In this document: piece after piece, positions 33,333 to 36,173 of the stretch
Layout: every line of letters starts with the position of its first letter
Numbering within the stretch: position 1 is the first letter of the stretch
NCBI GenBank assembly: GCA_945787715.1
Contig: CALZJE010000021.1
Location: forward strand, 1-43,345
Source of the DNA: an uncultured Ectothiorhodospiraceae bacterium
GTDB lineage: Bacteria > Pseudomonadota > Gammaproteobacteria > S012-40
Direction: 5' to 3'
DNA length: 43,345 nt
Notes under the pieces: generated by a model
What the model saw: the letters and a program-made list of their open reading frames with translations, nothing else
Databases searched by the model: none
What the model was told of the DNA's origin: nothing
Made by a program: the position numbers and the translations under genes

Positions 33333-34019
33333 ATGATCAAACTGCAGAAAGTACGGAAACGTTATTTCGATAATCACGCAGCATTAAGAGGCATTGATTT
33401 AGAGATAAAAGCCGAAGAGATGGTGTTTTTGACGGGTCACTCCGGTGCGGGCAAAAGCACACTACTGCGGCTGATAGCCCTACTTGAGCGCCCATCGGCA
33501 GGAAAAGTAATATTTGATGGAGTTGACCTAGCCACATTAGCACCCAATAAAATCCCACAACACAGAAGACGTGTTGGTGTCATCTTCCAAAATCCTACAC
33601 TGCTTTATGATCGATCTGTTTACGAAAATATTGCACTTCCACTGCAAGTAAATGGTTACACACCTACAGAAATTCAAAGCCGGGTACAAGCCTCACTGGA
33701 TTTGGTTGGACTATTAAAAAAAGCAAATAAAAATCCTGTTATCCTCTCAGGTGGAGAGCAACAACGAGTCGGGATAGCCAGAGCTATTGTGACACGCCCT
33801 GATGTTATATTGGCAGATGAACCCACTGGAAATCTGGATCCAGAGCTATCCAGAGATATCATGAATTTATTTAGGCGCTTAAATCAGGTAGGTATAACTT
33901 TGCTTATTGCTACTCACGACCTTGAGTTGATCAAGTCCTTTGATTTCAAGCAAGTTGAGCTGAAAAATGGCTTAGTTTATTCACCAGATAACGCTTCACC
34001 TGCTGGAGTAGTCATCTAG
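33333..34019 (+). CDS. ftsE: Cell division ATP-binding protein FtsE
   Basis: 228 residues. It is the ABC ATPase of the FtsEX complex, which activates septal peptidoglycan hydrolases through periplasmic partners. Walker [13 protein letters not shown]-loop VIFQNPTLL, signature [14 protein letters not shown], Walker [14 protein letters not shown] and the switch His (ATHD) are all present. It starts 14 bases after ftsY without a clear ribosome site, so re-initiation is likely, and its TAG stop overlaps the ftsX GTG start by one base. Confidence 0.97.
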
Positions 34020-35077
34020 TGATATCGAAAAAAACCCGCGGCGCTACACAAAAGCCGCCTACAGATTCCTCTCAAAAACCGAGAGAACCGTATAAAGTAG
34101 AAAAGAGTAAAATAGAAAAAAAGAAGACTACCGCAGCAGCAACAAATCCTGCGGAGCGATCGAGACTAAGAATTTGGCTCTCACATCACAAGTTAGCACT
34201 TACAAATGCTATTAACCGCATAAAGAAATCCCCAATTCCTACTCTACTCACCATACTTGTTGTGGGTGTCGCTTTAGCGCTTCCTGCTTCGTTGCAAGTT
34301 ATCATCAAAAACGTTGAACCTAGCCAAACGGCATTAAGCGAACAAGCGCAAATAACGCTATTTCTTAAAATTGATAGCAAACCCGTTTCAATAGATGCTT
34401 TTGTAGACGAGTTAAAAACTCGCCAACACATAGCAGACGTACAATATATCCCCGCATCAACCGCCTGGGAGGAGTTTCAACACACCACAGGATTAAGTGG
34501 ATCATCATCATTGCTGGAAAAGAATCCGCTCCCACACACTGTCATCATTCGACCTAGTACCGAAATTATGGACGCTGACCGCATTGAAAGTCTGCGCAAT
34601 GAATTACAGGCTTTACCGTTAGTGGATCTTGCAAAAATAGATATCCTTTGGGTAGAACGCCTCTATGCTATTATCGATTTCGTAAAGCTCACTTCCATCA
34701 GCATTTCTATCTTCTTGATTTTCACTGTATTGATTGTCATTGGTAATACCATAAAAATGCTTGGCCAAAATTTCCATGATGAAATCATCGTCAGTAAATT
34801 GGTGGGAGCAAGTGATGGCTATGTCCGCAGACCGTTCCTTTACAGCGGTGTGCTCTATGGCTTTGCAGGTTCCTGCTGCGCTATCCTGTTCGTTTTTATT
34901 GGTGTTTTACTACTTACTCCACAGCTTGATCAAATTGCAGCTCTCTTTCAAACAAAGATAGATATTACTATTCTTAGCATGAGTGACATTCTATCTTTGT
35001 TATTTATTGGAATAATTCTCGGACTTGGCGGGGCTTGGATATCAGCTAACCGCCTTATTAACAAAATGGCAGTCTAA
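34019..35077 (+). CDS. ftsX: Cell division membrane protein FtsX
   Basis: 352 residues, GTG start overlapping the ftsE stop (TAGTG). A Lys/Pro/Thr-rich cytoplasmic N-terminus (~1-55) precedes TM1 (IPTLLTILVVGVALALPASL). A periplasmic domain (~100-215) with ITLFLKIDSKPVS and KTRQHIADVQYI follows, then TM2 (ISISIFLIFTVLIVIGNTI), the cytoplasmic loop DEIIVSKLVGASDGYVRRPF, TM3 and TM4. The segment VSKLVGASDGYVRRPFLYSGVLYG is the family signature. With FtsE it couples ATP hydrolysis to amidase/hydrolase activation at the septum. Confidence 0.96.
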   Translation: MISKKTRGATQKPPTDSSQKPREPYKVEKSKIEKKKTTAAATNPAERSRLRIWLSHHKLALTNAINRIKKSPIPTLLTILVVGVALALPASLQVIIKNVEPSQTALSEQAQITLFLKIDSKPVSIDAFVDELKTRQHIADVQYIPASTAWEEFQHTTGLSGSSSLLEKNPLPHTVIIRPSTEIMDADRIESLRNELQALPLVDLAKIDILWVERLYAIIDFVKLTSISISIFLIFTVLIVIGNTIKMLGQNFHDEIIVSKLVGASDGYVRRPFLYSGVLYGFAGSCCAILFVFIGVLLLTPQLDQIAALFQTKIDITILSMSDILSLLFIGIILGLGGAWISANRLINKMAV

Positions 35078-35155
35078 GCTAACGAAAAATAACCAATTTT
35101 TTCAATGATATAGCTCATATTCAATAATTAAAGATTTTGCGAACCAACCCGATTA

Positions 35156-35182
35156 TTAGCACTCTAATCCTTTGAGTGCTAA
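35156..35182 (+). promoter_or_regulatory. CIRCE operator (HrcA site) upstream of rpoH
   Basis: TTAGCACTC (35156-35164), nine bases, GAGTGCTAA (35174-35182): a perfect match to the CIRCE consensus in both arms and in spacing. CIRCE is bound by the heat-shock repressor HrcA, classically in front of groESL and dnaK. Here it lies about 80 bases before rpoH. Confidence 0.93.
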
Positions 35183-35185
35183 ATA

Positions 35186-35215
35186 TTGGCAGACTGGCGT
35201 AGAGAGTGCTAATAT
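35186..35215 (+). promoter_or_regulatory. Sigma70-like promoter overlapping a degenerate second CIRCE
   Basis: TTGGCA (35186-35191), 18 bases, TAATAT (35210-35215) make a plausible promoter for rpoH. Inside it a third exact half-site GAGTGCTAA (35204-35212) is paired, at CIRCE spacing, with TTGGCAGAC (35186-35194), which matches the left arm at six of nine positions. HrcA binding here would block RNA polymerase directly. Confidence 0.6.
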
Positions 35216-35261
35216 GTAGTCAGCATGACTTTTTAAAGATGCATATATGGAGGCCCAATTA

Positions 35262-36119
35262 GTGACATCGAATATAAACGCATTGGATTTGGCAGTACCT
35301 CAAGGCAACATTGAGAGCTTTATTCATTATGTGAAACAAATTCCAGTACTCAGCGTAGAGGAAGAGCGAGAGTTAGCTTATCGGCTACAAAATGAGCATG
35401 ATCTGGATGCTGCACGTCAGCTTGTTATTTCGCATATGCGCTTTGTAGTACATGTAGCTCGCGGATATTCCGGCTACGGCTTACCTCAAGCAGACTTAAT
35501 TCAAGAAGGCAATATAGGCTTGATGAAAGCGGTTAAGCGCTTCGACCCAAGCAAAGAAGTTCGTCTTGTCTCTTTTGCGGTTCACTGGATCAAAGCTGAA
35601 ATCCACGAATTTATATTGAAGAATTGGAAGATCGTCAAAATTGCGACAACCAAATCTCAGCGTAAACTTTTCTTCAACCTGAGAAAGTCTAAAAAGCGCT
35701 TAGGCTGGTTTACTCAGGAAGAAGTAGAAGCAGTAGCTAGAGACCTTGATGTTTCTGAAAGCACAGTTCGTGAAATGGAATCTCGCTTGGGCAATATAGA
35801 TGCTTCGTTTGACGGATATGGCGACCAAGATGACGATTCATCTGATTATTTAGCGCCATCGTCCTACATTGTAGCCAATGACTCAGATCCTGCATTGCTG
35901 ATAGAGTCCACTAATTGGAACGAACAAAGCAACAACAACCTAAATGACGCACTTGCTGACCTGGATGATAGAAGCCGCGACATTCTTAACAAGCGTTGGT
36001 TGTCTGAAAGCAAATCAACACTTCAAGAATTGGCTGCGCAGTACAACGTGTCTGCAGAGCGTGTTCGTCAACTTGAAAAGAATGCGATGAAAAAACTTAA
36101 AGCAACACTTGCTGCTTAA
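35262..36119 (+). CDS. rpoH: RNA polymerase sigma-32 (heat shock) factor
   Basis: 285 residues from GTG 35262, chosen because GGAGG lies eight bases upstream and the resulting start ([16 protein letters not shown]) aligns with E. coli RpoH (284 residues); an ATG at 35247 lacks a ribosome site and contains this one. It directs transcription of chaperone and protease genes. Region 2 ([41 protein letters not shown]), the RpoH box [18 protein letters not shown] and region 4.2 ([29 protein letters not shown]) are intact. Upstream are CIRCE elements, implying HrcA control. It follows ftsX by about 185 bases, the conserved ftsYEX-rpoH order. Confidence 0.96.
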
Positions 36120-36143
36120 AAAATAACTTTATTATTCGTAAAA

Positions 36144-36168
36144 GCCTCAACTAGACTCTAGTTGGGGC
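36144..36168 (+). terminator. Terminator after rpoH
   Basis: A ten-pair stem (36144-36153 with 36159-36168, one G-T pair) and a five-base loop are followed by TTTTTTTT. It lies about 25 bases after the rpoH stop; the convergent DUF2461 gene ends six bases further on. Confidence 0.93.
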
Positions 36169-36173
36169 TTTTT

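Follow-up and report, generated by a model that had tools for sequence, protein, structure and literature searches.

What controls the gene for the heat-shock sigma factor sigma-32 in this uncultured bacterium, and could the repressor HrcA be part of that control? The question is raised by an exact CIRCE operator, TTAGCACTC-N9-GAGTGCTAA, which a pattern scan of the window (the whole 43 kb stretch analysed here, contig C21 of genome G000) located without mismatches on the forward strand at 35156-35182, in the leader of rpoH. A third GAGTGCTAA begins exactly 30 bases past the preceding one and, together with a partner matching six of nine bases, forms a second CIRCE, TTGGCAGAC-N9-GAGTGCTAA, at 35186-35212 on the same strand, 30 bp 3′ of the distal site and with three mismatches (15 of 18 arm bases matched). 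The preliminary description of this DNA, made from its letters alone, had reported the exact operator, the additional half-site with its spacing and the imperfect partner, and the scan bears it out on all of these. There is no further CIRCE with up to three mismatches in the window.

The downstream gene, also correctly named in that description, is rpoH: its product scores 399 bits against TIGR02392 (curated cut-off 323) and 424 bits against NF005143. The start of the gene, which runs on the forward strand from 35262 to 36119, is likelier to be the GTG at 35262 than the ATG at 35247 of the open reading frame list, because the alignment of relatives begins at the GTG, behind a putative Shine-Dalgarno sequence GGAGG read from the sequence at 35249-35253, eight bases ahead of it. 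The ATG overlaps this Shine-Dalgarno sequence (window 35247-35264), so that automatic annotation would begin rpoH five codons early. Upstream lie ftsY, ftsE and ftsX in that order, all before rpoH, and from the end of ftsX (forward strand, 34019-35077; TIGR00439, 279 bits) to the GTG the leader measures 184 bases; on the 3′ side of rpoH there is an intrinsic terminator-like hairpin at 36140-36172 (forward strand; 15-pair stem and T tract). Two other modes of control were considered for this leader and set aside: matches to an autoregulatory sigma-32 promoter are weak (9-10 of 13) and away from the sites, and an RNA thermometer is unsupported for the stretch 35222-35320, whose fold is no stabler than that of shuffles (z +1.35).

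Scanning the whole genome (4.4 Mb in 227 contigs) at up to two mismatches revealed a sole additional CIRCE, an exact copy at groESL (C65:773-799), so that exact copies in the genome number two, this one and the distal rpoH site. At three mismatches a match at C30:18036 lies amid pilin-like open reading frames; as this is at the level of the CIRCE pattern read backwards (three matches per strand at the same tolerance), we take it to be chance. The groESL copy lies about 100 bases 5′ of groES (Cpn10), directly behind a sigma-32-like promoter, CTTGAAA-N12-CCCCTA. The genome also encodes HrcA (PF01628, 211 bits) on contig C18, in a cluster ordered hrcA-grpE-dnaK-dnaJ, in which dnaK and dnaJ were recognised from their translations and grpE and dnaK are preceded by sigma-32-like boxes. 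No CIRCE with up to three mismatches was found ahead of hrcA in this genome (G000:C18, L005 2509-2700), unlike in several relatives, which do have one there (L181-L195). Since good CIRCEs sit at groESL and rpoH only, these are the two predicted HrcA targets visible in this genome.

To what extent is the operator at rpoH shared? A search of 56 genomes of the class for RpoH succeeded in 49, which yielded a first set of 50 rpoH leaders, and a second set comprised 80 named rpoH loci; a CIRCE was counted as present at up to three mismatches. On this basis a CIRCE precedes rpoH in 35 of the 50 leaders of the first set, among them all ten from the window's family that could be read. The same holds for 33 of the 80 named loci, including those of Alcanivorax, Dyella, Methylocaldum, Pandoraea, Trinickia and Pseudoalteromonas. 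The arrangement had been presented as a peculiarity of this genome, which it is not: it is widespread, and HrcA/CIRCE control of rpoH in Geobacter sulfurreducens was predicted in 2004 (PMC545781, Table 8).

Aligning the leaders on CIRCE brought out another motif at a constant position, GGAACTT, which lies 16 bases 5′ of the operator. Its GAAC core begins at -15 in 36 of 68 rpoH leaders and at -16 in another eight, and stands within 1 bp of this offset in 45 of them, as against none of 42 groESL and hrcA CIRCEs with GAAC at -16 to -14 (p=7e-14). At a spacing of N16 in 36 leaders and N17 in eight, it is followed by TCnnA, whose first two bases are the final two of the CIRCE left arm and whose other three come directly after that arm; TCnnA is found in 46/68 rpoH CIRCEs versus 10/27 groESL CIRCEs. 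On this comparison GGAACTT-N16-TCnnA at rpoH is a predicted sigma-E-type promoter whose -10 element lies inside the left arm of the operator. In the window the corresponding elements, both on the forward strand, are CGAACCA at 35140-35146 (GAAC at 35141-35144), at the fixed offset from CIRCE, and TCTAA at 35163-35167, N16 from the GAAC box. The -35 is a weak match (4/7), whereas those of relatives are strong, and the pattern xGAACxx-N16-TCnnA occurs five times in the window; the sigma-E claim for this genome therefore rests on the comparison with relatives.

The CIRCE arms may themselves supply another promoter. A promoter scan places a sigma-70-like -35, TTGGCA, at 35186-35191, the left end of the proximal CIRCE, and a -10, TAATAT, at 35210-35215, starting in its right arm, with TG at 35207-35208 (all on the forward strand). 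The TTGGCA-18-TAATAT promoter of the preliminary description is thus present and has an upstream TG, but TAATAT matches TATAAT at only 4/6 positions, and comparable sites are no commoner in the window than in shuffled DNA (three found, 2.6 expected). The left arm of CIRCE again reads TTGGCA or TTAGCA in relatives, and the right arm is followed by ‘nAT’ in 52/68 rpoH CIRCEs versus 0/27 groESL CIRCEs, a constraint through which the arms yield TTrGCA-N18-TAAwAT, sigma-70-like and with an upstream TG.

A second CIRCE at 29-34 bp is found in eight of 96 rpoH leaders, against an expectation of 0.02. Six of these tandem leaders belong to the window's family (of ten), one to a genome of another family (G022) and one to another genome of the class; the offset is 29-32 bp in the window's family and in G022, and 34 bp once. 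Within the family the distal copy is a nearly perfect CIRCE that keeps the sigma-E geometry. The proximal copy retains TTGGCA or CTGGCA together with its right arm, the remainder being degenerate; G010 is the exception, its proximal copy carrying a single mismatch. A simple reading of these sequences would be that the two promoters share one operator elsewhere and are split between two operators in the window's family. The second site might instead be a decaying or nascent copy without a role of its own, a single CIRCE doing everything, as its three mismatches in the window and the mostly single CIRCEs of leaders elsewhere would suggest. We think this rather doubtful, given the preservation of the proximal right arm and a recurrence so far above expectation at such similar distances. 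It may nevertheless be that the proximal CIRCE is too degenerate for HrcA to bind it alone.

Further support for the sigma-E-type promoter comes from a wider comparison. Allowing one mismatch, the composite GAAC-N11-CIRCE occurs in 152 of 369 genomes of the class, and the same pattern read backwards gave zero among the matches listed. When 30 composite loci were examined, all 21 exact ones and seven of nine with one mismatch lay before rpoH; the two not at rpoH both lacked an exact GAAC. In P. aeruginosa (AlgU) and E. coli, rpoH is already known to be under sigma-E control through promoter P3. Among CIRCE-less rpoH leaders 32/62 have a sigma-E-like box, versus 0.6% of shuffles; these include leaders from hrcA-less Pseudomonas and Enterobacterales, in agreement with the sigma-E/AlgU promoter P3 reported for rpoH of P. 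aeruginosa (PMC13104619). The window's genome has an rpoE gene (TIGR02939, 334 bits), itself preceded by a sigma-E-like AGAACTT-N16-TCTAT, and a protein with an RseA_N domain encoded next to it (PF03872, 4.9e-17).

These findings bear on a more restricted proposal, that HrcA represses rpoH at the sigma-70 promoter only and that the sigma-E-type box here is a functionless, decayed remnant. The window's -35, CGAACCA rather than GGAACTT, would fit such decay, as would the 23 of 68 CIRCE-bearing leaders without GAAC at the fixed offset. Yet the GAAC core and its spacing are exact in the window, the same GAACCA recurs in the same place ahead of CIRCE in other genera, many families have conserved the composite and the genome has both rpoE and an RseA-like partner, so we regard the remnant proposal as unlikely.

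The presence of the operator at rpoH also follows that of its presumed repressor. In the first set an rpoH CIRCE is present in 29/33 leaders from genomes with hrcA versus 6/17 from genomes without it (Fisher p 2e-4), and in the named set in 26/29 versus 3/21 (Fisher p 1e-7); these tests treat genomes as independent, and most genomes of the first set are from separate families. Five of the six hrcA-less genomes with an rpoH CIRCE in the first set are assemblies 62-94% complete, the sixth (G028) being 97% complete, and among leaders from genomes with hrcA, four of the class set and three of the named set lack an rpoH CIRCE. Action of the CIRCE in mRNA, or binding of a factor other than HrcA, is on this evidence very improbable: the palindrome could fold as a hairpin if an upstream promoter read through it, but site presence follows hrcA across genomes, and the bases are kept to the HrcA consensus beyond what mere pairing would demand. 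A chance resemblance to CIRCE, for which we found no supporting point, is already refuted by the conservation of the site at rpoH in all ten family leaders, and shuffling leads one to expect only 0.01 such sites per window at up to three mismatches.

The preliminary description had proposed that HrcA represses rpoH, and had suggested looking for hrcA, for other CIRCE sites and for the element at the rpoH of relatives; as described above, the genome has hrcA and an exact groESL copy, and the site is conserved. Neither of its two refuting conditions that could be checked, a lack of hrcA and a lack of the element at the rpoH of relatives, therefore holds. With hrcA present and CIRCE conserved at relatives' rpoH, the predicted HrcA control is well supported by comparison, but that proposal was incomplete in that it missed the conserved sigma-E-type promoter, the interleaving of which means that HrcA would gate the envelope-stress input besides the housekeeping promoter.

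We propose that the rpoH leader is probably a composite switch, in which GroE-activated HrcA gates the two inputs to sigma-32 transcription. Free GroE would keep HrcA active and HrcA would occupy the CIRCE or CIRCEs, covering the sigma-E -10 and start region from the distal site and the sigma-70 -35 and -10 from the proximal site, and so blocking both routes to sigma-32 synthesis. Heat or misfolded protein would titrate GroE, releasing HrcA and allowing rpoH transcription, to which the sigma-E promoter would add once sigma-E is freed by envelope stress; envelope stress by itself would have a weak effect while HrcA stays bound. Sigma-32 would then raise groESL, grpE and dnaK, and restored GroE would re-arm HrcA to close rpoH and groESL again. 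The sites, their fixed geometry and conservation, and the genes hrcA, rpoE, groESL and that for the RseA-like protein are all there; from these we infer HrcA binding, promoter use and GroE feedback in this organism. We counted against this mechanism the chance-level occurrence of sigma-70 hexamers, the weak -35 of the window, the degeneracy of the proximal CIRCE and the leaders that lack an rpoH CIRCE although their genomes have hrcA.

We see an even chance that in a large part of the Gammaproteobacteria (the former Betaproteobacteria included) a single evolved composite, with HrcA covering sigma-E and sigma-70 promoters, gates sigma-32. This would be a coincidence gate, through which envelope stress reaches sigma-32 only after GroE capacity has run out. 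The tandem form would then split the promoters between two operators, and the hrcA-less lineages of E. coli and Pseudomonas would be exceptions in which the gate was lost and the sigma-E promoter remained. The sigma-32 gene itself appears to be occupied by a repressor that senses how much GroE is available, and an HrcA site on rpoH would therefore wire in series two heat-shock systems usually called alternative or parallel. Envelope stress would enter through a promoter embedded in the HrcA operator, and the prediction is a sharp one, operator and promoter sharing bases; the layout thus seems to join three stress signals within one short stretch of DNA.

In the textbook circuit of E. coli, sigma-32 is controlled mainly via translation and protein stability, and the HrcA of Bacillus subtilis is modulated by GroE. 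In Campylobacter jejuni GroE raises HrcA binding to its operator, and titration of GroE by misfolded protein has been proposed (PMC8533110). The HrcA targets of B. subtilis and C. jejuni are chaperone operons, whereas the target predicted here is a heat-shock sigma gene. The rpoH P3 promoters of P. aeruginosa and E. coli are likewise of the GGAACTT-N16/17-TCnnA type and link envelope stress to sigma-32; in contrast to the rpoH leader described here, with its -10 inside the CIRCE, hrcA is absent from the Pseudomonas and enterobacterial genomes tested, and CIRCE from their rpoH leaders. The groESL operator of the window's own genome resembles the rpoH site in being exact and in seemingly answering to both HrcA and a stress sigma factor, but it lies just 3′ of a sigma-32-like promoter and has no GAAC box and no -10 within the operator.

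Another close likeness is to G. sulfurreducens, for which a pure prediction places an exact CIRCE about 50 bases 5′ of rpoH, in a genome that also has hrcA and a CIRCE at groESL; the bare observation of CIRCE at rpoH is thus not new, but the entry in that table is a single site, with no overlapping sigma-E promoter or tandem described there (PMC545781). The interleaving, its spread and the tandem form were not found in the literature searched, outside which lie subscription papers, notably Permina and Gelfand 2003. Relative to that literature, what is new is the interleaved and often tandem design.

Several minor observations were made besides. The groESL layout is conserved and differs from that at rpoH (L002 773-799, L086-L092, L158-L180), with CTTGAC or CTTGAAA, a CCCCTAT-like box and CIRCE immediately 3′, which we read as a mixed sigma-32/sigma-70 promoter with its operator at the start site. 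In rpoH sites of the Xanthomonadaceae/Lysobacteraceae type the core is altered (L062 2927-2953; L048 2931-2957; L025, about 49 bases 5′ of rpoH; L122, of G024), symmetrically so in L062, where TTAGCAGTC-N9-GACTGCTAA occupies the usual position behind the sigma-E box; this is possibly a changed or weakened HrcA operator particular to rpoH. One genome (G044) has two rpoH genes (L123 and L139), with a CIRCE leader at L139 only. Pseudoalteromonas luteoviolacea (L042) has an exact CIRCE before rpoH, and its HrcA seems divergent, given its low profile score (E 1e-11).
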